From Candidatus Kapaibacterium sp. (GTDB lineage: Bacteria > Bacteroidota > Ignavibacteria > Kapaibacteriales > WFXC01), in contig JALWUI010000159.1 of assembly GCA_027082775.1 (NCBI GenBank), positions 1-44,580 of the forward strand: a stretch of 44,580 bases of DNA, given 5' to 3'. The translations under genes and the position numbers were made by a program. Each line of letters begins with the position of its first letter. Positions within the stretch are counted from its first letter, which is position 1. Below are positions 8,462 to 37,329 of the stretch, piece after piece. The notes below the pieces were generated by a model. The model was not told the origin of the DNA, made no database searches, and saw nothing but the letters and a program-made list of their open reading frames with translations.

Positions 8462-9208
8462 ATGTCTCCACAGCTTCAGCAACGGCTGGAATCTATCCGC
8501 ACCAATACAACTGCCGGGAGCCGACAGTTGGTACTTTTTGCCCTCGATGCACTGGCAGAATGCCGGTTTTCTTCTGAAGCTCTTTCCCATTTTCTGACCC
8601 AACTCCGGTGGATCCGTCCTGCAATGGCAGCATTTCGCACGATCAGTCGTTTCCTCTCCGATCAACTCCAGCACATCTCCTGTCCAACTGCTGTCGAGAA
8701 AACCAGAGCGCTCATACAACGCAGTTCCCGTGAAACGATCCAGACCGCTTTACAGCAGCTTCCGCATCACGGCACCGTTGCCACCATCAGTTACAGCTCC
8801 CTCATTGAACAAATTCTGGTCGAAGGAATCCACGAAGGAAAACAGTGGAACATCTACTGCTTCCGTTCCGGCACTCCTGCTTATGGCGAATTTTTCCAGC
8901 AACGACTCCATCGGGCTGGCATTCCCGCCACCGTACTTCCAGATGCTGTGCCATCGCACCCCATCGATTTTGTTCTGATCGGTGCTGACACAGTCTCCCC
9001 GTCCTATGGACTTATCAACGGACACCCCAGCTATTCGCTCTGCGCTCTACTCTTCTACCAGATTCCCATTTATTGCTGCGCCGAGTCTTTTAAATATGAC
9101 GCATCGCTTGTACTGGAACCCGGCTTCGACTTTCTTCCTGCTTCCTTCGGTATTCACCAAATTTCCGACTCCGTCTGGATCGATTCTTTAGCAGAACATC
9201 GCTCATAA
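8462..9208 (+). CDS. eIF-2B alpha/beta/delta-like protein (possible sugar-phosphate isomerase)
   Basis: VATISYSSLIEQILVEG...VLPDAV...DFVLIGADTVSPSYGLINGHPSYSLCALLFYQIPIYCCAESFKYD matches the IF-2B family C-terminal pattern. Confidence 0.75.
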   Translation: MSPQLQQRLESIRTNTTAGSRQLVLFALDALAECRFSSEALSHFLTQLRWIRPAMAAFRTISRFLSDQLQHISCPTAVEKTRALIQRSSRETIQTALQQLPHHGTVATISYSSLIEQILVEGIHEGKQWNIYCFRSGTPAYGEFFQQRLHRAGIPATVLPDAVPSHPIDFVLIGADTVSPSYGLINGHPSYSLCALLFYQIPIYCCAESFKYDASLVLEPGFDFLPASFGIHQISDSVWIDSLAEHRS

Positions 9209-9359
9209 AGAGCCGTGTTTCCGGACATCGGGCTCCATTCAGCTCTTTTCTTAACATAACGGACAGCCAACTCGCTCCGACCTCCCCTTAAAAGATTTTT
9301 CCTGCAAATTCTTCCTTAGTTTTCCAGGTCAGCGGTTATGTTAAACAAACCTCTTCCCG

Positions 9360-9582
9360 TTTTCCACAATCATCCACAAATCGAGTGTTTCTGAACTGTG
9401 GAAATCCGTGGAAAACTTACCACTTTGTCCACACTTTTACTGTGGAAAACTTGTTTATCCACAACGCTGTGGATAACTCCGCACTTTTCCACATCATTTT
9501 CCACATACGACCAGTGTTCGCTCTCCCCTTGATTCCGTAGGAACGAGCACTTCTTCCATCCCGGCTTTTCCACTTTTCCACA
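9360..9582. other. oriC: Candidate chromosomal replication origin (DnaA-box cluster)
   Basis: DnaA-box-like 9-mers at 9360+,9370+,9397-,9407-,9425+,9441-,9455+ (TTATCCACA),9468- (TTATCCACA),9485+,9497+,9566+,9574+ in a non-coding interval. Confidence 0.8.
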
Positions 9583-9708
9583 TCTCCTGAAACTACAACC
9601 AGAGAAGAGAAAGCTCAATTCCTGTAACGGAAAATGAAGAGCAACCGCTTCTCTCACGGGTTTTCCCTATATTCGCAACATTGTAGAACAAAGTGGAGCA
9701 AACAGAAA

Positions 9709-10338
9709 ATGAAACGGTTTAGCCTAATTCTGCTTCTCAGCCTTGGAGTGACCATTGCACATGCGCAGTTATTCTATCCGCTTGGTGTCGGAATTGGTCT
9801 AACAGGACAGATGGGAATCAACGCTGGCGATATTCCGCAGGGAGAAAAAACAGAGCTTGCAATTGCGCCTCTACCGAATTTCTTCGCTTCTGCGTGGTAC
9901 ATTGTTTCGCAGAAGGAAGACTTCGGATTTGCGCTGGATGTGGGATACACCACGAACACGTTCATAATGAAGCCGTACCAGAATGTCACGGACCAAAACC
10001 GCTTCCAGTATGTTCTCAGCTACCTGAGCGTTCATCCGTACATCCAGTTCAAAATGTTTAACCTGGGCGTTGGGCTGGGATTCCCGCTAAGCGGCAAAAG
10101 AGAGAACGTTGCCGGAACAATCTCACAAGAACTATCAAACCTTGCAACGGCGATAGAACTCCGGTTCAAACTCTCGGTTCCCGTGTACCGGGATGCAACG
10201 GGTAAGGTGAGTTTCTGGATTACCGGAGCGTACCAGCTTAATGGGATTTATGCATCGGACATTCCCAACAATCCCAAAGTTGCCTCCGCAGGCATTGGGT
10301 TCAGCTATCACTTTCACTTCCGCCTGTGGGAATACTAA
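9709..10338 (+). CDS. Secreted outer-membrane beta-barrel-like protein
   Basis: MKRFSLILLLSLGVTIAHAQ signal peptide; alternating hydrophobic/aromatic strands, ends SYHFHFRLWEY. Confidence 0.6.
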   Translation: MKRFSLILLLSLGVTIAHAQLFYPLGVGIGLTGQMGINAGDIPQGEKTELAIAPLPNFFASAWYIVSQKEDFGFALDVGYTTNTFIMKPYQNVTDQNRFQYVLSYLSVHPYIQFKMFNLGVGLGFPLSGKRENVAGTISQELSNLATAIELRFKLSVPVYRDATGKVSFWITGAYQLNGIYASDIPNNPKVASAGIGFSYHFHFRLWEY

Positions 10339-14535: not shown

Positions 14536-16876
14536 ATGAGAAAACTGCGCCTGTTTTTGTTCTTTCTCTTCCTGTTTGGGGGGGGGGGATATAGTTGCCC
14601 AACTCCAGTTACCCGTTTTCCTTGATACCCGTGGAGATACCATTGATTACAATTTTCCGCCACCGGATACGGCTTACGCGCCGGGAAAGCTCATCGTGCG
14701 ATTTTATCCCCACGCTTTGTACCTTGACTCACTGTGTTACGCTTATCCGGCTCCGATCACGGAGGGAGCGCCGGGTGAAGGGGTTTTGATGTTGCCTCCG
14801 TCGCTGCGCCAGCATTTGTTATCGCAGCAGTTTTCCGTTGCTTCCATCATCCGGGATTCGGCACTTCGAGTGACGCTTGAAAATCTGGGGGTTGATTTCC
14901 TGCAGCGAATGACGGTAGCCAACCCGTGTGCTGATACGATTTCCATCACGCGCTACGGTGATACGGTCCGATGCACTGATTACCTGTGGATGGTGATGAA
15001 GTTTCGGAGTGATACCATCGATATCATTGATGCAGCGGATCAGATTTTAAGCAATCACTGGGATGTGGTGGAGATTGTGGAGCCTAATTACTATCTGGAG
15101 CTTTTGGACCGGACACCTTCTCGAGATCCGAATTTCCCCTTGCAGATCAGCCTGCATCGGGAGATGACGGGAGTAACACGGGCGTGGGACTTTGAGGTTG
15201 GAGATTATGCGATCAAAGTCGGGGTCATAGACGATGGGATATGGTATTATCATTGCGATTTGGGTGGTGGTAAGGGATGGGGATACAAGGTTGCTGGTGG
15301 CTGGAATTGGACGGAAGATACGACAGATTTCAGTATAGGTTCCAGTCATGGAACTCCTGTGGCTGGCATTGTTGGGGCGTTGACCAATAGAGGATGTGTG
15401 GAGCAGGGAGTTGCCGGGATTGCTGGTGGATGGGGACCGGATAACAACTATAGCGATGAGGGAATAGGGTGTGCACTATATGGCTTTCGTGTTGCTCATC
15501 CGCAGTGGTCGGGGTATTTATCTCTTGCTTACGCTATTGCTGCTATTCTGGAAGCCAGCAGTCGTAATCCGAACACCGGGTATGGATATGGAGTGCACGT
15601 CATTAATGCCAGTTGGGGAGGTTCATTCTACAGCTTTGCGTTGAGATCCGCGATATTGTATGCATTTGAAAATGGGGTCAGCTTTGTTGCAGCAAGGGGG
15701 AATAGCTATGATGATCGATTGCATTATCCTGCGTGCTACGACGAGTGGTGGGTGTCCAGTGTGGGGGCATCTGATAGGTCCAGGAATCGGATTGATTATT
15801 CTTCGTATGGCAGGGGGATGGATTTCCTGGCTCCGGGAGGATATTATTCAGGTCCGAACGCTATAGTGTACACTACTCAATACGGCGGAGGGTTTGGATA
15901 TTTTGCAGGAACCTCTGCGGCAGCGCCCCACGTCAGTGGTCTGATTGCACTGTTGTGTTCTGAAGCCCGGGAGCACCAGTGGGATCTGGTGGTGGAGGAT
16001 TACGAAGGAATGATTAAGGCTGCTTGTGAAGATAAGTTGTCACGTTTCTATGACGATCAAACTGGATGGGGACATATCCGGGCAGATACGTTGTTTGATA
16101 TGCTCCAGCGAGGATACAGGGTGAGCCATTTCTCTGTTGATTCAGTGGCAATCGACTCTGTTGGAGAATGGAGTCCGACTTTTTTGCTGCTGGTGCTTAA
16201 TGCTGGAGGGCGACCAAAGCCGTTAGCTTCGGGACCTTACCTGGCACAGCGCCGATGGGTCTATGGTACGATTCATTTGCCTCCACATCGGTGGATAGTG
16301 GATAGTGCAAATCCCCTGTTCGTGTGGGGGCGGAGCGGTGAAGGAGCGCCCAGTGGTTGGTCGCTGGCAAATCCGTGCCTTCAAGCTGGTGCGACGTATG
16401 TTCTTTCAGGACGGGGTGGCAACGGGAAGACTGATGGCATCTACCATAGCCATTCCTTCCAGGTTCGGGTTGCCAACCTGCAGTATAAGCTGGTGTCGCT
16501 ATTGAATGGGAGGCGATCGACGCGACCAAAGAAGCTTGGATTCCATATTTCGGTTTTTGGAAGGGAGAAGGTAACCGATGTAGAAGACCGGGATGGACGG
16601 ACCCGGCATACGGCTGAGGGGCGTCGGTGGGCATTCCGGTGTGTGGTGCAGGATCGGAAGCTCAAGGTGTGGGTGAGCTCCTCAGTCCCGGGAAGTGAGG
16701 AAATGACGGTACGGATTTTTGATGCGCAGGGCAAGATGTTGTATGCTGGATCTGGCGTGTTGCGCCGGGGAGGAGAACCGCAGGAGTTTCTGGTTCCCCG
16801 TCTTTCCCGTGGGGTTTATTTTGTCCAACTGCGGATCGGAGCGGATGTGGTCACGCAGCCGGTATTTGTCTGGTAG
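14536..16876 (+). CDS. Secreted S8 (subtilisin-like) peptidase with T9SS-type C-terminal domain; signal peptide currently out of frame because of G11 tract
   Basis: Catalytic regions VGVIDDG (D), SSHGTPVAGIVG (H), GTSAAAPHVSGL (S); C-term MTVRIFDAQGKMLYAG...SRGVYFVQL. ATG 14536 MRKLRLFLFFLFLFGGG joins DIVAQLQLPVF only if one G is removed. Confidence 0.85.
14578..14588 (+). repeat. Homopolymeric G11 tract in signal-peptide coding region
   Basis: TTT-GGGGGGGGGGG-ATATAG read directly. Confidence 0.95.
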
Positions 16877-17894
16877 CATTGTCTGGATGCTGCTTTTGCT
16901 GCTGAGTGGTGGGTGGGGTGGATGCCAGGATGTTCCCGTGCAGCCGTCCCCGCCGCCGTGTGAATGGAATAATGGATATCGATTTATTGTACCACCATCG
17001 GGACATATTGTCAGAGGAGCATCGCCGGATGGAATGATGGTGGCATATGAGGACGTACGTGATGAAGGTCCTTTACACATTATCGACGTGAGCACTTATG
17101 AAATATACAAGATTGAGCTTCAGCCATATTTGCCAGAGGGAGAGATTTCTGCTGGAGCAGGAAGGATCTTATGGTGTCCGTATGATCACCGGCGCCTGAT
17201 GGTATTGGCCAAGTCGATAGATCAAGAGGGAAGATTCCGTGACTATGCATTTGTGATCGCTCTTTCAGACGGTATGGCGGTTCGAGTGGAGAAGGTGATA
17301 CCGGAAAGTCCGGGGGATCAGGTGTTTCTGCACTGGATGGCGACTTCAAAGCCTGGAGCAGATTACTTTGTGTTGTCAGGAGAGCGGATGTACTGGTTGC
17401 AGCAGGATACGATTTTGCCGCTTCCGGAGAAGTATCGCGGAGAGCCGCAGCGACGGGTATGGAGTCCCGGCGATCAGCACTGGTTTGGTATCGTAGAGGA
17501 TGGGAACGGTCAGCGACGATTTTTGCTGGATGGAGTGGAGATACAATTACCGAGGGAAACTGGTAGGGCAAGCTGGGCACCCAATGGGCGGAGTTTGATT
17601 TTGTCGCTCTATTATAATGATGAGAGTTGGGAGAATAAAGGTCCGGGCATTGACCGATTCTGGGTTATTACGGATGTCAGTCAGGTGTTGAAAAATTCGT
17701 CACCTGAAGTGGAGCCAGATTATGTGATTGATCCATCAGAGCAGTGGTGTATGTATTCGATGGACCCAGTGCCGCGGTTTACCGGTGATACGACCTTTGC
17801 GGTCTCCCTGTTTCCGCCGGGGTTTTTCACCTGTTACATATATGAGGTTTCGGTTGAAGGACGGATTTTGCGGCAGTTAACATTCGAGTTGTGA
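16845..17894 (+). CDS. Lipoprotein, beta-propeller/TolB-like (paralogue A)
   Basis: IVWMLLLLLSGGWGGC lipobox; ends YEVSVEGRILRQLTFEL; overlaps subtilase stop. Confidence 0.7.
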   Translation: MWSRSRYLSGSIVWMLLLLLSGGWGGCQDVPVQPSPPPCEWNNGYRFIVPPSGHIVRGASPDGMMVAYEDVRDEGPLHIIDVSTYEIYKIELQPYLPEGEISAGAGRILWCPYDHRRLMVLAKSIDQEGRFRDYAFVIALSDGMAVRVEKVIPESPGDQVFLHWMATSKPGADYFVLSGERMYWLQQDTILPLPEKYRGEPQRRVWSPGDQHWFGIVEDGNGQRRFLLDGVEIQLPRETGRASWAPNGRSLILSLYYNDESWENKGPGIDRFWVITDVSQVLKNSSPEVEPDYVIDPSEQWCMYSMDPVPRFTGDTTFAVSLFPPGFFTCYIYEVSVEGRILRQLTFEL

Positions 17895-17901
17895 GGGAGC
17901 G

Positions 17902-19065
17902 ATGGGAGTTGGGAAGAGGAGGCAAGGCGGAGCAGAGCGATGGTGGTTTGTGATTGTGGGGCTCATCGGGCTGATGCTCGGAAGTGGGGGGTGTGGGGAG
18001 GTGGTGGCGCCGAGACCGTGCTTTTTCCCGCACAGTCTGGGGGATAAAAATGCGCAGTTTCCGGAAGAGGGATATCATCAGGTGCTGCGGGTGTCGCCGA
18101 AGGAACGACACATAGGGTTTATTGTACGCCGGCAGCAGTTTTATTTTGGAGTCCGGAGTCTGGACCCGGCGAATTTGCAGTGGGACGATGGACGAATGGA
18201 TGCAGCGATTCGAGCACTGGGGTTCGGCATCAGGGATGTGTTGTCAATGCACTGGGCACCGTATTCCGATCGGTATGTCTTGATAGAGGCACAGACAATG
18301 GTGGATACAGGGAGATGGGTGGCATTCGGGCGGAATTATTTTCTGGTGGACCGGCAGCAGGGGAAAGCCTATCGGATAGCACCATCGGGATATAGCACAG
18401 CATTTTCGGTGGATGAAACGCTGCGGTTCTACCGATGGATGGAGCAATCCGAGCCGGGGAAGAATTTTCTGGATGCGGGGGACAAGGGGATGTATTATCT
18501 TGAGGGCGATGAGTTTTTGCCGTTTGAAAATGATCCGGTGGAACGATGGCGGCGGCAGGTGATGGGAGAAGGGAAATGGGAGCGGCGGTGGTGGCAGGAA
18601 GTGTCGCCGGATGGGGAGAAGGTGTTTCTGGCAGTAGAGCTTTCGGGGCGATATGGGGGATATGCGTACTACGTGAACGGCTACCGGTTGTGGTTTGAAC
18701 GTCGGGCGAGGTATCCGATCATCGTCAGGCGGGCACGATGGTCGCCGGATGGGAAGCGGCTGGCACTGGTGGTGATGCCGGTGCCGCCGAGGCTGTTTCC
18801 GCAGATCTGGATCTGGGACGATGTGGATCGGCTGCTTCGGGAGCGGCCGGTGGTGGCAAAGCCGGATCGGGTGGTGGATTTGTGGCAAACGGCGTGCGGG
18901 TATCGGTTTTTGCCGGGCGGGGATTTTCTGAGCAAAGATCGGCTGGTGGTGACGATGGTGCCGCCGAGGGATACATTGCCGTTTGCGTATGGGTATCTGT
19001 ACGAAGTGGATTTGCAGGGACAGATTCTGCGGCAGTTGACGATGACCCCGTTGCCATATAAGTAG
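17902..19065 (+). CDS. Lipoprotein, beta-propeller/TolB-like (paralogue B)
   Basis: VIVGLIGLMLGSGGC lipobox; RARWSPDGKRLALVV; ends YEVDLQGQILRQLTMTPLPYK, similar to the preceding gene. Confidence 0.7.
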   Translation: MGVGKRRQGGAERWWFVIVGLIGLMLGSGGCGEVVAPRPCFFPHSLGDKNAQFPEEGYHQVLRVSPKERHIGFIVRRQQFYFGVRSLDPANLQWDDGRMDAAIRALGFGIRDVLSMHWAPYSDRYVLIEAQTMVDTGRWVAFGRNYFLVDRQQGKAYRIAPSGYSTAFSVDETLRFYRWMEQSEPGKNFLDAGDKGMYYLEGDEFLPFENDPVERWRRQVMGEGKWERRWWQEVSPDGEKVFLAVELSGRYGGYAYYVNGYRLWFERRARYPIIVRRARWSPDGKRLALVVMPVPPRLFPQIWIWDDVDRLLRERPVVAKPDRVVDLWQTACGYRFLPGGDFLSKDRLVVTMVPPRDTLPFAYGYLYEVDLQGQILRQLTMTPLPYK

Positions 19066-19090
19066 CTGTTTCACAAAGAGGAGTGAGGAG

Positions 19091-19852
19091 ATGCAGCGAT
19101 GGTGGATGGTGGTGATCGTGGCAGTTGGGATCATTGGTGGAGGGATGATCGGGGGATGTGAGGATGTGACTGGACCGCGGGAGACATCGTGGATGATGCC
19201 GCTGGATTCGGGGAATTGGTGGGAATACGAATGGGTAGCGGGGAGCCTTGATACCCTGAAGTTTACAAAGCGGGTGCGGATCGAGGTAGCAGGAAGGCGG
19301 AGGGTTGATGGTCGAGCGGCGGCGATGGTGGTGTGGCGGTGGCAGTCGGAAGGTGGGGAGTTTCGGGATACGGTGTTCTGGGAGGAACGGAATGGGCAGT
19401 TGTGGGAGTATAGAAACTGGTGGATTTTGAGATTTTGGGGGATATCCCTTCGGTGGTTACCAGTGGCAGATTTTGGAAAGCCGAGTTGGAGTTATCGTTT
19501 TCAGTTCTCGGGCGCAGATACAGTAGAGTTGGTAGGAATGAAGCTCGTTGCGGACTGGATAGAGTATGGAGCCCGGTATGAAGGACGCCAGACAGTAACT
19601 TTTCTGGATACTTCTGCTGTTGCTTTGCAATATCGTTGTAGTGTGCGAGATCAGTTTTCATCGTATGGCTCAGGAGAGAGAGTGTATCCGGGATGCGAGG
19701 GGCAATGGTTGTGGATCTGGGTTGTTCGAGGGATCGGGATCGTGCAGTTTCAGGTAGCAGATGACTGGTCGTGGGAGTTTATGACCGATTATGAGCCGTG
19801 CGAGCCGAGGGATCCGGTTATGTGGCGCTTGCGGCGGTATTCGATTCGGTAG
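19091..19852 (+). CDS. Lipoprotein of unknown function
   Basis: MVVIVAVGIIGGGMIGGCEDVTGPRE lipobox; no recognised domain. Confidence 0.65.
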   Translation: MQRWWMVVIVAVGIIGGGMIGGCEDVTGPRETSWMMPLDSGNWWEYEWVAGSLDTLKFTKRVRIEVAGRRRVDGRAAAMVVWRWQSEGGEFRDTVFWEERNGQLWEYRNWWILRFWGISLRWLPVADFGKPSWSYRFQFSGADTVELVGMKLVADWIEYGARYEGRQTVTFLDTSAVALQYRCSVRDQFSSYGSGERVYPGCEGQWLWIWVVRGIGIVQFQVADDWSWEFMTDYEPCEPRDPVMWRLRRYSIR

Positions 19853-24488: not shown

Positions 24489-25733
24489 TTATTCATATCG
24501 AAGGGCTTCCACCGGATCGAGTCGAGCCGCTTTCCACGCCGGATAAGATCCAAAGATCACACCTAACAGCGTACAGATGAGCACGCTACCAATGATCCAG
24601 TTCAGTGGCAGGACCAGTTGGAATCCTAAGGAAGAGCCCACAAGGGCAGCGGCAATGCCGCCCAGCACAATGCCGGCAATGCCACCCAGTTGAGAGAGAG
24701 TTAATGCTTCCAGCACGAACTGGGTCAGGATGTGACGAACCTTTGCCCCCACGGCTTTACGGAGACCAATTTCCCGTGTCCGTTCCTGCACGGCTACCAG
24801 CATAATGTTCATAATCCCAATGCCAGCCGCCAGCAGGGCAATGATCCCGGTTCCAAGTCCGAAAATCTGGAGGTATTGCATAAAGCTGTCAAACTGCGAG
24901 CCGATCGCTTCGTTTGTTTGCACTTCAAAGTTGTTTTCTTCCCACGGTTTCAAATTTCGCAAGCCGCGCAAAATTGCGATTGCCTGGTCGATCATTTCCT
25001 GTAAGCTCTCCGCAGAGGGAGCTTCCACGTAGAGTGCGAATGAGCGCCATCGTGCCGGAACATTCTGGCTAAAGTAGCGGAGGAAAATGGTTGCGGGGAC
25101 AAAGACGACTTTATCGAGACTTTGTCCCATCACATTCCCACGCGCTTTCAGAACGCCGACCACTTGCAACCGTCTTCCCCGGATGAAAATGTGCTGTCCC
25201 AGCGGGGAAGAAGCGGGAAAGAGCGATCGGACTACATCGGCGCCGACCACAGCAATTGGGCGGTTCAGCAGCAGATCTTCATCCGTGATGGGACGTCCTT
25301 CTTCAATATCCAGCCGGTTTGCAAGGAAAAAGCCGCCATCCACGCCGTAGAGGGTGAAATCATTGTCTGTGGTCTGTTCTTCATACTTGATCCGAACCCC
25401 TGAAATATCGGCAGCGAAGCCAACGGCGCGGGCATACGGTTGCATTCGTTCTTTGAATTTCATCGCTTCTTGAAGGGTAATGGGCGGGCGATTCCGGTAT
25501 CGCCGCCACGCTCGATGCCCAACGACAAAGGAAGGACGGCGGTCGATCCGAAAAGTGTTTTGTCCAAGTTCCAGGATCTGAGAGGATACCGTGTGCTCCA
25601 GGGAGGTCACTAAGGTTCCGGACCCCATCAGGGCAAAAATACCGATGGCAATGCTGAGGAGTGTCAGGAACGCTCGCAATTTGTTCGAGCGGATGGAAAA
25701 AAGTGCCTGCAAAATGCTTTCTCGTAAAACCAT
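24489..25733 (-). CDS. ABC transporter permease (MacB/FtsX type)
   Basis: LRAFLTLLSIAIGIFALMGSG...[30 protein letters not shown]...[12 protein letters not shown]. Confidence 0.92.
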   Translation of the reverse strand: MVLRESILQALFSIRSNKLRAFLTLLSIAIGIFALMGSGTLVTSLEHTVSSQILELGQNTFRIDRRPSFVVGHRAWRRYRNRPPITLQEAMKFKERMQPYARAVGFAADISGVRIKYEEQTTDNDFTLYGVDGGFFLANRLDIEEGRPITDEDLLLNRPIAVVGADVVRSLFPASSPLGQHIFIRGRRLQVVGVLKARGNVMGQSLDKVVFVPATIFLRYFSQNVPARWRSFALYVEAPSAESLQEMIDQAIAILRGLRNLKPWEENNFEVQTNEAIGSQFDSFMQYLQIFGLGTGIIALLAAGIGIMNIMLVAVQERTREIGLRKAVGAKVRHILTQFVLEALTLSQLGGIAGIVLGGIAAALVGSSLGFQLVLPLNWIIGSVLICTLLGVIFGSYPAWKAARLDPVEALRYE

Positions 25734-25764
25734 CGATTGTGTTCCCTGTGACTTTCCAGACCGG

Positions 25765-27030
25765 TTATTCGTACCGCAATGCTTCCACCGGATCGAGCCG
25801 GGCAGCGCGAAGTGCTGGGGCGAAGCCTGCCAGAACGCCGACCAGCACCGCGACCAGAAGCGCAATCCCCATCAAATGGGGCGGAATGATGGATGCTGTA
25901 AAGCCCAGATCGCCGGGGAAAAGGAGAAATTTTGCTCCGGCGATCGCGCCCTGAGACAAAAGCAGAGCAATGACAGCACCGGCAGTACTCAGCAGTGCTG
26001 CTTCGATCAGAAATTGCAGTAAGATTGCTCGCCGCTTTGCCCCTACGGCTTTACGCAGCCCAATTTCTCGCGTCCGTTCCACCACCGAAACGAACATAAT
26101 GTTCATAATGCCGATGATACCTACCAGGAAAGATAGACCGGTCATTCCAATCCCGATACCCCAGATCGCAATGCGGATGGTTCGCACCTGTTGTTCGAAA
26201 GCATCGATGGAGTTGATCGAGAAATTGTCTGGTTCCCATGGAGCCAGATTGCGAACTTTGCGCATCACCATTCGCGCTTCTTCCGTAACCTCTGGCAGCA
26301 ACGATTGCGACGGGGCTTTTACCACCAGCGTGTAATTGGAGAAGTTGGTACTGTGTAACAGTTGGAACACTCGAAAGGGGATATAGACCGCATTGTCCCC
26401 CCAGTCGCTGATCAGCGTTCCCCGCTTTTTGAGAATTCCGATGACCCGGAATTTTTTGCCTCTGTAGAAAATCGTTTGTCCCAGAGGATTCTGGTTCGGA
26501 AAAAGCTCTTGCCACACATTGTATCCCAGAACGGCTACGTAGCTGGCAGTCAGGTCTTCAATGGGGGCGAGAAACCGTCCTGCTTCGATGCTGTTTGCCA
26601 CTTCCCAGTCGTTGTCACTGGTAGTGCCGATAATCCCAATGCCACTGATGGAGTTTTCTGCTGATCGAACGGTCTGTCCCCAGGCGTTACCCCGCGGATA
26701 TGCTCGCTCTGCCAGGGTCAACTGCGCAATGGCAGCTCGAATCTGCCGAATGGTAATCGGCGGGCGCTTGCGCGCCTCCCGCCACGGCGTTCGTCCCGTC
26801 CAGTCGAATTTGTGAATGTAAATGACTTCGTAGCCAAGACTGCTAATCGTTCGTTCCCACGCAGAATCCAGTCCATCCAGAAACCAGCCCATCAGGACGA
26901 CAAAGGTGACACCGATAACAACGCCCAGCGTGGTGAGCAGGGAGCGAACCCGGTTGGCGGCAATGGCAGCGACAGCAATACGGATGCTTTCGCCAAATTC
27001 TGCCAGAATGTTCAGTGTGCGTTGCATCAT
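25765..27030 (-). CDS. ABC transporter permease (MacB/FtsX type)
   Basis: [22 protein letters not shown]...[30 protein letters not shown]...[12 protein letters not shown]. Confidence 0.92.
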
Positions 27031-27728
27031 ACCGGTATGCTGCTGGTTTTGCTTTCTTCTTTCTGAATTTGACCATCCAGAATGTGGATAATGCGGTTAG
27101 CGTGTTGGGCAACGTGTGGTTCGTGGGTGACGAGAATGATGGTATTTCCCTGACGCCACAGTTCATCGAACAGCGCTAAGATTTCAGCGCCTGTACGACT
27201 ATCCAGGTTGCCGGTAGGTTCGTCGGCTAAAAGAAGCGAGGGATTGTTGATTAACGCGCGGGCAATAGCAACTCGCTGCCGTTGTCCCCCCGATAGCTCA
27301 TTGGGTTTGTGAAAGAGCCGATCTCCTAATCCCACTTTTTCCAGCATAGCCACAGCGCGCTCGTAACGTTCGTCGGCTGGAACTCCTGCATAGATAAGGG
27401 GAAGTTCGACATTGCGCACCGCCGTATAGCGCGGTAGCAGGTGGAAGGTCTGGAAGACAAAGCCGATTTTTTTGTTCCGGATTTCTGCCAGTTCATTGTC
27501 GTCCAGATCGCTGACGTCCTCGCCTTCCAGAAAGTATCGTCCCGAGGTAGGGGTATCCAGACAGCCGATGATGTTCATCAGGGTAGATTTACCGGAGCCT
27601 GATGGACCCATAATCGCGACGTATTCGTTGGGTTCAATCGAAAGTGTAACGCCGCGCAGCGCCCGGACCACCTCTTCTCCCATCTGGTATTCCCGGACGA
27701 TATTTTCCAGGTGAATGAGCGTGTTCAT
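27027..27728 (-). CDS. ABC transporter ATP-binding protein (LolD/MacB-like)
   Basis: [15 protein letters not shown] Walker [16 protein letters not shown] signature, [11 protein letters not shown] Walker B. Confidence 0.95.
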
Positions 27729-29053
27729 TGTTCACTCTTTCGTTCGTTCCGCTTTGCTTGTTGCCATCGCTTTCTGGACTTGCGTCCGGATTTGTTCTGA
27801 ATAATCAATTTGCTCCCGTCTTTGAGTCGCCGGGCAATGGCGGTGAAACTGCCCGTTACCACCTCTGTTCCTTCCTCCAGTCCCTCCACGATTTCAATGT
27901 AGTTCCCATCGCTGATGCCAGTAACCACCCGAACCATTTTCGCATAACCGTTGTCATTAACAAAGACGACCGTCGGCGGATGCTGCTGTTGCGGTTTTTT
28001 GTTTCCCGGACCACCTTTTTTCCCTTGCCACATCGGTCGTTGGGACCGGCGCACCGTAACCGCCTGGAGTGGCACTGCCAGCACGTTTTCTTTCTTTTCA
28101 GTTTGAATTTCCGCCGTGCAGGTCATACCGGGACGCATCCGGGGATCAGTTTCCAGCAGACGAATTTCTACCTTGAACAGCACCAGATCTTCGTTGCTTC
28201 CGCCGGGACCCTGCGAAATGGGGGCGTTGCCAACGTGCAATACCACCCCCCGGAACTTCTGGTTGGACAATGCGTCCAGTTCCACGAAGGCGGTATCGCC
28301 TGGCTCAATAAGCACAACGTCGTTTTCATCAACCTCCACTTCGGCATTGATCGTGTGGAGATCGGCGATCCGCATAATTTCCGTTCCCTGCATTTGAGCG
28401 GTTCCCACCACTTTTTCCCCTTTTTCAACGGGAAGAGCAATCACTACTCCGTCGATAGGGGAATAGATCTGGGTGCGCTGGAGACTCAGTTCTGCTTGCT
28501 TGAGCGATGCCCGAGCACGTTCATACTGCTTCAAACTGGCCTGGTACCGGGCTTGTGCCTGCTGGAAACGCGCCTTTGCCTGATCCAGCTCTTCCTGCGA
28601 GGCAAATTCTTTTTTGTAAAGCTGGAGTGTGCGGTCCAGCATTGCCTTAGCGTTTTCCAGCTCGGCTTTCGCAACTTCAATGTCCGATTTTGCTGCTTCT
28701 GCTGCTGCCCGAAGTTGTTCCACCTGGGTTTCCACAATGTCAGGTTTGATCCGAACTAACAGTTGCCCTTTGCGGACGGTGTCTCCCTCTTCAACTCCCA
28801 GAAAAATAATTTCGCCGCTGGTTTCCGAAGAAATTTTGACTTCCGTCTCCGGCTTAATGGTTCCAGTCACCGTCACCGTCTGAATGATGGTACGGCGCTG
28901 CACCGGTTCGACGGTAACCGGGGTTCCCTCTTCCCGGTGGGCGGAGACGTAGAAGATAAAGCTGAGAATAAGGAGTATGATGACACTGAGTCCAATCCAG
29001 AGTTGCCGCTTTTTCCGACGTTTGCGTACGCGTTTGTTTTCTGCTGTTGCCAT
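27725..29053 (-). CDS. Periplasmic adaptor subunit (RND/MacA/HlyD family)
   Basis: [53 protein letters not shown]; coiled-coil hairpin. Confidence 0.92.
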
Positions 29054-29082
29054 CGTTCGCTCGCTTTATTGGGACTTCGTTT

Positions 29083-30435
29083 TTACGGTTCAGTTCCGGT
29101 GAGCATCTTCAGTTGGTATTGGGCTTTTAGATAGTTGAACAGAGCAGTCAGGTAGTTCACTTTTGCGGATGTGAATTGCGAGTTTGCCTGTGCGTATTCT
29201 GCTAAGGAAATTTTACCCACATCCAGGCGCTCCTGAGCACTGGCATAATTCAGGCGAGCAGCATCTAAGGCAAGGGTTGCTGCCTGAAGTTCTCGTTCGC
29301 TGGCGTCCAGTTGCAGGAATGCCTGTTCAATATCCGCAGCGATTTGTTGCTCGATCTGTCGCAGTTCCAGTTCTCGCTGCATCCGCTGAACATTCGCTGA
29401 TTGAATCTGTTCATTGGTGCGGAAGTTATCGAAGATCGGTACGCGCAAAGATAGTCCAACGAAGGTGCGTCCTAAGCGGTCGAAATCTCGAAGCTCGCTG
29501 TTTGCCCACGACCAGGAAAGCGCAGCAGAAAGGCTGGGGAAGTAACCGCTGCGCGCTACGGTCAGCGATGCGTTGGCAATTGCCAGTTGCTTTTGAGCTG
29601 CAAGGTAGTCCGGACGACGGCTCAATGCTTGCTGATAGACCGTCTGGAAAGTTCCTATGCGCTGACGGAAATCCTGCATCATCGCTGCAGTTACCGTATC
29701 TGGCAAGCCGGCGGATGAAAATTCCACCGGTAAAGTGGGAGAAAGACCGATGAGACTGAGCAGCTTTGCTTTCGCAAGGGTGAGCTGGTTTTTGGCTTGA
29801 ACCAGTGCTAATTGTTTCTGCGCTACCTGCGCCTGTTGCTGATACAAAGCCGGTTTGGCAATGCGACCGGCTTCGTATTGCGCCTCCAGTTTGCGAAGCT
29901 GCGTTTCCGCTGTTTCCAAGTCCGCTTTGCGAAGATCGATGAGTCGGTAGGATTTCTGGACTTCGAGAAACTGGTCATAGACCTGCTGAAAAACGCGCCG
30001 GCGAGTGTCAGCCGCTTGTAACTCCGTCGCCTGAAGCTGGTCCTGTGCCTGCGCAAATTGGGCTTCGCGAGCAAAGCCGTCGAAGAGCGGAAGAGAAGCG
30101 TTGACACTGAGCGAATAGGAATTGGCAGGTGAGCGTGGAACCGGGATCAATTGCCCGCCGATATTTACGAATTGCTGTTGCTGTTGATCCAGGCGGCGGG
30201 AATACCCGGCGCTGAGAGAAAGACCGGGAAGATACCGCCCGAAAGCGGCGGTGAGACGGGCACCGGCGCCCAGTAATTGGGCTTCTGCCCGCTGGATGTC
30301 CAGATTGTTTTCTCGCGCTAATTGGAGGCATTCTTGCAGGGTTAAAACCTTTGGACCTTTACCCTGAATCTGTGCGCTGCTACCGGCAACGCTCAGCAGC
30401 ATTCCTGCGACGATCGCAATAATTCTCTGAATCAT
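29083..30435 (-). CDS. TolC family outer membrane efflux protein
   Basis: LTLQECLQLARENNLDIQRAEAQLLGA...duplicated helical repeats. Confidence 0.92.
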   Translation of the reverse strand: MIQRIIAIVAGMLLSVAGSSAQIQGKGPKVLTLQECLQLARENNLDIQRAEAQLLGAGARLTAAFGRYLPGLSLSAGYSRRLDQQQQQFVNIGGQLIPVPRSPANSYSLSVNASLPLFDGFAREAQFAQAQDQLQATELQAADTRRRVFQQVYDQFLEVQKSYRLIDLRKADLETAETQLRKLEAQYEAGRIAKPALYQQQAQVAQKQLALVQAKNQLTLAKAKLLSLIGLSPTLPVEFSSAGLPDTVTAAMMQDFRQRIGTFQTVYQQALSRRPDYLAAQKQLAIANASLTVARSGYFPSLSAALSWSWANSELRDFDRLGRTFVGLSLRVPIFDNFRTNEQIQSANVQRMQRELELRQIEQQIAADIEQAFLQLDASERELQAATLALDAARLNYASAQERLDVGKISLAEYAQANSQFTSAKVNYLTALFNYLKAQYQLKMLTGTEP

Positions 30436-35440: not shown

Positions 35441-37313
35441 ATGTTCCACGTGGAACATTGCGGAGGTAGAGTGCCAGGATGGAAAGATCCGCAGCCGTCA
35501 CGCCAGCAATGCGCGAAGCCTGTCCCAGCGAATGTGGTCGGATCTTTGCCAGCTTTTCCCGGGCTTCGGTCGAGAGCGAAGGAATAGCGGCATAGTCGAT
35601 GTCCGGCGGAATCCGTTTTTCCTCCATCGCCCGCAGCCGCTCCACTTCCCGACGCTGCCGCTCGATGTACCCCGCATATTTGATTTCCAGTTCTACCTGT
35701 TCCCGAACGGCTGCTGGAAGGGAGGTGAGATCCCAGCCAAGCGCTGTCAACAGTTCCTCCAGTGTTACTTTGCCCCGCCGCAACAGCTTTTCCAGTGACG
35801 TGGCTTCCGTAATGGGAGCTTCGCCAATAGCGGTCAGATAGGCGTTGATAGCGTCGGGCGTTGCTTTCGTTGTTTGAAGCTGCTGGTGGAGTTGCGCGAT
35901 GGCTGCTTCTTTGGCAAGCAGTTGTTCGTACAATTCTGGTTCAATCAATCCTAATTCGTAGCCATAACGCAGCAGGCGTCGGTCTGCATTGTCCTGCCGC
36001 AGCAGCAGTCGATATTCTGCCCGCGAAGTGAACATTCGGTACGGTTCGTCGACGTCTTTGTTGATGAGATCGTCGATCAAAACGCCAATGTAGGCTTCCG
36101 ATCGCTGGAGTTTGAATTCGCCCTCACCACGTACCAGCAGTGCCGCATTGATTCCGGCAATGAGTCCCTGGGCAGCGGCTTCTTCATATCCCGACGTTCC
36201 GTTGATCTGTCCAGCGAAAAACAGCCCCCGGATTGCTTTGGTTTCCAGGGTAAAGTGGAGCTGGTAGGGGTAGAAAAAGTCGTACTCGACGGCGTAGCCG
36301 TAGCGGAGAATGCGGGCGTTTTCCATACCGGGAATGGTGCGCAGCGCCCGCTCCTGAATATCCCGCGGTAAGCTGGTGGAGAATCCGTTGACATACACCG
36401 AGTTTGTGCCCAAGCCTTCGGGTTCGAGCACGATCCGATGCGATTCTTTGTCTGCGAATCGGTACACTTTATCTTCGACCGAAGGGCAGTACCGCGGACC
36501 TCGCCCCGTGATCTTGCCCGTGAACATCGGGGAGCGATCGAAGCCTTCCGCGATAATTTCGTGTGTTTCTGCGGTCGTGCGGGTCATATAACAGAGAATC
36601 TTGTTTTCGACGGATTGGGTACGCAAAGAAAATGGCTGGGGAGGCTCATCCCCGGGATGGATTTCCATCTTGCGGAGATCGAGTGTTTCCAGAGCAACCC
36701 GTGGTGGCGTACCGGTTTTGAGCCGTCCGCGCTGGAGACCGTAACTTTCCAGCAGATCCGAGATTTTGGTGGCACTCTTTTCACCAAAGCGTCCTCCGGT
36801 TGTCGCTTCCAGTCCGGTGTACATTACTCCGTTGAGGAAGGTTCCGCCACACAGCACGACGGCTGTGGTTTTGAGCTGTTCGCGGTCGTCCAGGAGCACT
36901 CCAACGACCCGATCGTTGCGGACCAGAATTTCCGTCACCGTACCCTCAATCAGGGTTAAGCTGGGCAGGGATTGGAGCAGTTGTCGAGCGAACAGCGGAT
37001 AGAGAGCTTTATCATTTTGCGACCGGGGCGACCACACGGCAGGACCGCGGGAGCGGTTCAGGAGTTTGAACTGAATGCCGCTCCGGTCTGCTAAGACACC
37101 CATCACGCCGCCCAGGGCATCAATTTCTTTCACCAGATGCCCTTTTGCTGTTCCGCCAACGGCAGGATTACACGAAAGCCGTCCAATGGTGTCAAGGGAC
37201 ATCGTCACCAGCGCAACACGGCATCCCATCCGGGCAGCCGCCGCTGCTGCTTCGATGCCAGCGTGCCCACCGCCGATGACAATGACATCGTATGTATCCG
37301 ATCGATTGCGCAT
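35403..37313 (-). CDS. mnmG: tRNA uridine-5-carboxymethylaminomethyl modification enzyme MnmG (GidA)
   Basis: DVIVIGGGHAGIEAAAAAARMGCRVALVTMSLDTIGRLSCNPAVGGTAKGHLVKEIDALGGVMG. Confidence 0.97.
   Translation of the reverse strand: MRNRSDTYDVIVIGGGHAGIEAAAAAARMGCRVALVTMSLDTIGRLSCNPAVGGTAKGHLVKEIDALGGVMGVLADRSGIQFKLLNRSRGPAVWSPRSQNDKALYPLFARQLLQSLPSLTLIEGTVTEILVRNDRVVGVLLDDREQLKTTAVVLCGGTFLNGVMYTGLEATTGGRFGEKSATKISDLLESYGLQRGRLKTGTPPRVALETLDLRKMEIHPGDEPPQPFSLRTQSVENKILCYMTRTTAETHEIIAEGFDRSPMFTGKITGRGPRYCPSVEDKVYRFADKESHRIVLEPEGLGTNSVYVNGFSTSLPRDIQERALRTIPGMENARILRYGYAVEYDFFYPYQLHFTLETKAIRGLFFAGQINGTSGYEEAAAQGLIAGINAALLVRGEGEFKLQRSEAYIGVLIDDLINKDVDEPYRMFTSRAEYRLLLRQDNADRRLLRYGYELGLIEPELYEQLLAKEAAIAQLHQQLQTTKATPDAINAYLTAIGEAPITEATSLEKLLRRGKVTLEELLTALGWDLTSLPAAVREQVELEIKYAGYIERQRREVERLRAMEEKRIPPDIDYAAIPSLSTEAREKLAKIRPHSLGQASRIAGVTAADLSILALYLRNVPRGTSTVPSESPADAH
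35442..35457. promoter_or_regulatory. parS: parS-like ParB binding site, inside mnmG 3' coding end
   Basis: TGTTCCACGTGGAACA, perfect 16-bp palindrome. Confidence 0.85.
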
Positions 37314-37329
37314 TGTTCCACGTGGAACA
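37314..37329. promoter_or_regulatory. parS: parS-like ParB binding site, abutting mnmG start codon
   Basis: TGTTCCACGTGGAACA, identical palindrome. Confidence 0.85.

Follow-up and report, generated by a model that had tools for sequence, protein, structure and literature searches.

The locus considered here raises a simple question: can the replication origin of a chromosome be recognized in a region that does not adjoin dnaA? In the window (the whole stretch of 44,580 nucleotides from Candidatus Kapaibacterium sp. that was analyzed), the initial annotation had singled out a dense cluster of DnaA boxes as a candidate oriC. This proposal is supported by the uniqueness of the box cluster, by a switch in GC skew, by the conservation of the boxes and by the presence of parS sites nearby. 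Because these four lines of evidence agree, positions 9360-9582, with flanks extending to about 9250 and about 9650, are very probably the single chromosomal oriC, as predicted from sequence.

The DnaA-box cluster and its surroundings

The motif scan confirmed that twelve boxes lie on both strands in non-coding DNA. All are 9-mers that match TTWTCCACA (seven exactly and five with one mismatch) and occupy 223 bp located entirely between a gene of the IF-2B family and a right-hand ORF. From left to right, their orientations are + + - - + - + - + + + +, and the boxes starting at 9566 and 9574 overlap by one base. The perfect back-to-back pair separated by an acgc spacer is as initially described. 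Concerning the neighbors, the assignment of the left one as eIF2B-like agrees with its Pfam match, whereas the beta-barrel label given to the right one is unsupported by any Pfam or NCBIfam match. The features of the region are the following:

8462-9208, + strand: left neighbor, IF-2B-family (eIF2B-like) gene (PF01008, E=2.2e-13)
9251-9346, no strand: left candidate unwinding element, conserved AT-rich CTTAAAAGATTTTTCCTGCAAATTCTTC of low duplex stability (putative function)
9360-9582, no strand: core of the predicted oriC, twelve DnaA boxes (motif match, conservation in the same-genus genome G001, uniqueness in the genome)
Box starts, left part (at most one mismatch to TTWTCCACA): 9360+, 9370+, 9397-, 9407-, 9425+, 9441-
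Box starts, right part (same threshold): 9455+, 9468-, 9485+, 9497+, 9566+, 9574+
9455-9476, no strand: back-to-back pair TTATCCACA-acgc-TGTGGATAA, both boxes identical to the E. coli consensus
9565-9644, no strand: right (alternative) candidate unwinding element, 80-bp stability minimum (putative function)
9709-10338, + strand: right neighbor, 209-aa protein with a signal-peptide-like start (likely ATG at 9709) and no family match

The window as a whole contains 43 matches to TTWTCCACA with at most one mismatch, compared to 18.5 +/- 4.1 in shuffled sequences, none of which reached 43. In the complete set of 215 contigs that make up the 2.74-Mb draft genome, the exact motif occurs 76 times. 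The 69 occurrences outside the cluster are scattered, and no pair of them is less than 500 bp apart anywhere in the draft. The search for a denser cluster, which had been suggested as a check, therefore found no denser group of exact boxes anywhere else in the genome. Furthermore, the Poisson expectation for seven exact boxes in 223 bp is about 1e-15 per genome. A collection-wide scan for the back-to-back pair was uninformative, since the matches listed fall in many unrelated phyla, and a spaced-pair TGTGGA pattern with three mismatches was too loose for use.

Two AT-rich tracts adjacent to the boxes may act as unwinding elements. The left one carries CTTAAAAGATTTTTCCTGCAAATTCTTC between conserved inverted arms, TTAACATAAC (9251-9260) and GTTATGTTAA (9335-9344). 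In the window, the stability of the right one is nearly as low, and in G001 it is the lowest. A scan for DnaA-trios found no run.

Conservation, GC skew and the position of dnaA

The same twelve boxes are found in the same order in G001 (positions 97346-97568 of its 123-kb contig C15). In the alignment of the window with this genome, none of the 107 box bases differs, compared to 41 of the 116 bases located between boxes (Fisher p=3.7e-14) and 44 of 278 bases in the flanks. Each of the five imperfect boxes carries the same mismatch in both species, and in the central pair only the 4-bp spacer differs, its two boxes being unchanged. Since substitutions affect 41 of the 116 between-box bases and no box base, this comparison indicates selection on the boxes. 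In a third genome of the genus (G002), the portion of the locus that is present shows 99% identity. Its assembly (C24:1) is interrupted in the flank to the left of the boxes, immediately ahead of them, and this break may explain the absence of an IF-2B-family gene there.

The initial annotation had also proposed a GC-skew check, and the minimum was indeed found at the cluster both in the window and in the sister species G001. In the window, the skew is mostly negative to the left of the cluster and positive to its right, with a cumulative minimum at 10.6 kb; the local minimum is offset rightward from the cluster by about 1 kb. On contig C15 of G001, the cumulative minimum is at 98.6 kb, at a negative-to-positive switch whose two arms cover about 98 kb (left) and 25 kb (right). 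For comparison, 1.1 Mb of this genome was sampled: 40 other contigs were read at their starts and 20 of these also at their ends, leaving out C42-C47, C49, C50 and the middles of large contigs. Contigs sampled at both ends have one skew sign each, except C34, which shows the positive-to-negative switch expected of a terminus, and C20, whose skew is weak and mixed. Among these contigs, no clear negative-to-positive switch was found besides that of C15. In the same sample, the best 300-bp box score elsewhere is 4, compared to 26 at the origin.

Overall, the locus combines three properties of an oriC: (i) an intergenic box cluster, (ii) a skew minimum and (iii) boxes conserved between species. 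The location of dnaA next to the cluster, a common but non-defining arrangement, is not found here. The gene, which encodes a full-length DnaA with its DNA-binding domain, lies on a separate 3-kb contig of the same genome (C125), and no box cluster accompanies it on this contig. In G001, dnaA is carried by C48, and the contig ends place it no less than 46 kb away from the cluster; the 20-kb neighborhood of the gene has a uniform skew sign in this genome as in G002. The origin thus lies apart from dnaA, as initially noted. An origin at dnaA itself was considered and ruled out, owing to the lack of an adjacent box cluster and to the one-signed skew around the gene in these two sister genomes. 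The view that this context is unusual did not hold: an oriC far from dnaA was described as common in the phylum Bacteroidetes by the authors of the Prevotella intermedia OMA14 genome (PMC4755523), which makes the placement found here ordinary, and other families of the order are similar.

parS sites, predicted mechanism and alternative explanations

Only two sites in the whole genome match the parS consensus TGTTNCACGTGNAACA perfectly. They flank mnmG, 26-28 kb from the box cluster:

35442-35457, no strand: parS site TGTTCCACGTGGAACA, one side of mnmG, perfect, conserved in G001 and G002
37314-37329, no strand: parS site TGTTCCACGTGGAACA, other side of mnmG, perfect in G001, one mismatch in G002

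The genome also carries a ParB gene (ParB_N match on contig C77), and parS in the origin region together with such a gene is what is expected of a ParABS system. parS sites are most often close to the origin, according to two studies (PMC7333895, PMC7022226). The two sites provide independent support for the identification of oriC. An origin at mnmG itself was also considered for this genus and ruled out: the skew is already positive there, and no DnaA box was found around this gene in the window.

The initiator DnaA binds its boxes, assembles as an oligomer, opens a neighboring AT-rich tract and loads the helicase. At this locus, DnaA encoded elsewhere would bind all twelve boxes, among them the back-to-back TTATCCACA pair. 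The bound protein would oligomerize and melt the adjacent AT-rich tract, either the left or the right one, and the helicase would be loaded for two divergent forks. ParB would then bind the two parS sites flanking mnmG and segregate the new origins.

Dense DnaA boxes are also carried by datA- and DARS-type loci of E. coli, so the cluster could be a locus titrating or regulating DnaA, the true origin being located elsewhere, for example at mnmG and its parS sites or at dnaA. In line with this, other families of the order have their skew minimum near mnmG, and in the window this gene, with its parS sites, lies 26 kb from the cluster, on its right side. However, it is at the cluster that the skew switches, whereas it is already positive at mnmG, where boxes are absent; dnaA is located in DNA of one skew sign; and the genome contains no other cluster able to act as an origin. 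Moreover, a datA- or DARS-like cluster is expected away from the replication origin, whereas this one coincides with the skew switch. Altogether, we consider such a titrating or regulating locus very improbable.

Some plasmid origins also have iterated DnaA boxes, and the cluster could accordingly derive from an integrated plasmid, phage or other mobile element. The core genes found on both sides (those encoding PheT, FBPase, YchF, MnmG and MnmE), in the same order in G001, argue against it, as do the lack of any replication-initiator gene seen among the translations of the window and the extent of the skew switch in G001 (about 98 kb on one side and 25 kb on the other); the probability of such an origin is therefore negligible. 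The same very low probability applies to a cluster arisen by chance or corresponding to a DnaA-regulated promoter of the downstream gene. The cluster does lie upstream of a + strand gene, but the region contains no sigma-70-like promoter (in a scan that excludes promoters of the Bacteroidetes type), the 107 box bases have undergone no substitution and the cluster coincides with the skew switch. With the shuffle and Poisson controls, a chance origin of the cluster is excluded.

Origin position in the order and comparison with known systems

The predicted oriC can be compared with loci from other families of the same order. In two complete genomes whose skew was sampled at intervals, the negative-to-positive switch was found (i) in G012, around 1.466 Mb in the vicinity of serS and mnmG, dnaA being located at 1.324 Mb, and (ii) in G005, around 0.126-0.14 Mb in the vicinity of mnmG, dnaA being located at 0.725 Mb. 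Both carry parS sites at mnmG. Their best box groups are weak: that of the switch region of G012 lies between a Dps-like gene and serS, which adjoins mnmG, and that of G005 lies one gene beyond mnmG. In a third family (G015), an eight-box cluster is located beside serS at a sharp skew minimum. The gene names at these three loci were read from translations, mnmG alone being matched by similarity. A relic origin at serS was also searched for in the genus studied here and rejected, as only one exact box was found there, and this box is absent in G002. In a genome from another family of the order (G007), three separate clusters of exact boxes, each a candidate origin, were observed (C15:281838-282131, C5:22813-22868 and C1:135483-135541).

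Within the order, the origin is thus located at different distances from the parS-mnmG landmark (26 kb in the window, 20 kb in G001 and about 1 kb in G005), which is the modest new point of this work. Since this landmark recurs in G005, G012 and the present genus while its distance to the origin varies, these data suggest that the origin moves relative to it, on the basis of few genomes and with weak box groups in G005 and G012. The chances are slightly below even that the origin moved repeatedly in the order (by mnmG, by serS or 26 kb off) with parS remaining fixed around mnmG. If so, origin and centromere would change position independently of each other, and the genus studied here would have a box-rich origin displaced to a site between an IF-2B-family gene and an unrelated one.

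A literature search on the replication origin of Kapabacteria found no published account. Outside this lineage, chromosome 1 of P. intermedia OMA14 similarly has multiple DnaA boxes at a GC-skew transition without dnaA nearby (PMC4755523), but its gene neighbors differ from those of the window. In Melioribacter roseus (Bacteroidetes/Chlorobi group), the prediction of oriC likewise relied on DnaA boxes and on two clear transitions in GC skew; however, this origin lies between dnaA and dnaN (PMC3534657), whereas dnaA is located elsewhere here. The oriC of E. coli and Yersinia, beside gidA (mnmG), shares the box consensus TTATCCACA and the presence of mnmG in the origin region (PMC10225481), but here this gene is 26 kb from the boxes and carries the parS sites. 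Among cyanobacterial origins, that of Cyanothece ATCC 51142 has boxes of the form TTTTCCACA, which is also that of six of the exact or near-exact sites in the window, and it is likewise defined by its own cluster. However, this cluster has only three boxes and such origins are usually next to dnaN, compared to twelve boxes without a dnaN neighbor in the window (PMC4674748). An oriC distant from dnaA being already known in Bacteroidetes, the present one is a well-supported but ordinary case. It nevertheless gives the lineage an origin with coordinates and a box map. These coordinates allow peak-to-trough estimates of growth rate and the assignment of leading and lagging strands in these drafts, and the families compared here provide a test case for origin shifts relative to parS.

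Two other features of the window were observed. An island (14576-19852) with unusually strong positive GC skew (up to 0.4) encodes a subtilase and three lipoprotein-like proteins. The subtilase carries a type IX secretion sorting domain that scores exactly at the cut-off and suggests a Bacteroidetes-like affiliation. This protease has moved, since its place and orientation are different in G001 (C15, 42.9-45.2 kb). Further to the right, an operon-like run (24489-30435) seems, from its translations, to encode an ABC ATPase, two permeases of the FtsX type that are 35-37% alike, a TolC-like protein and a membrane-fusion protein. It is a probable MacAB-type exporter whose permease is duplicated.
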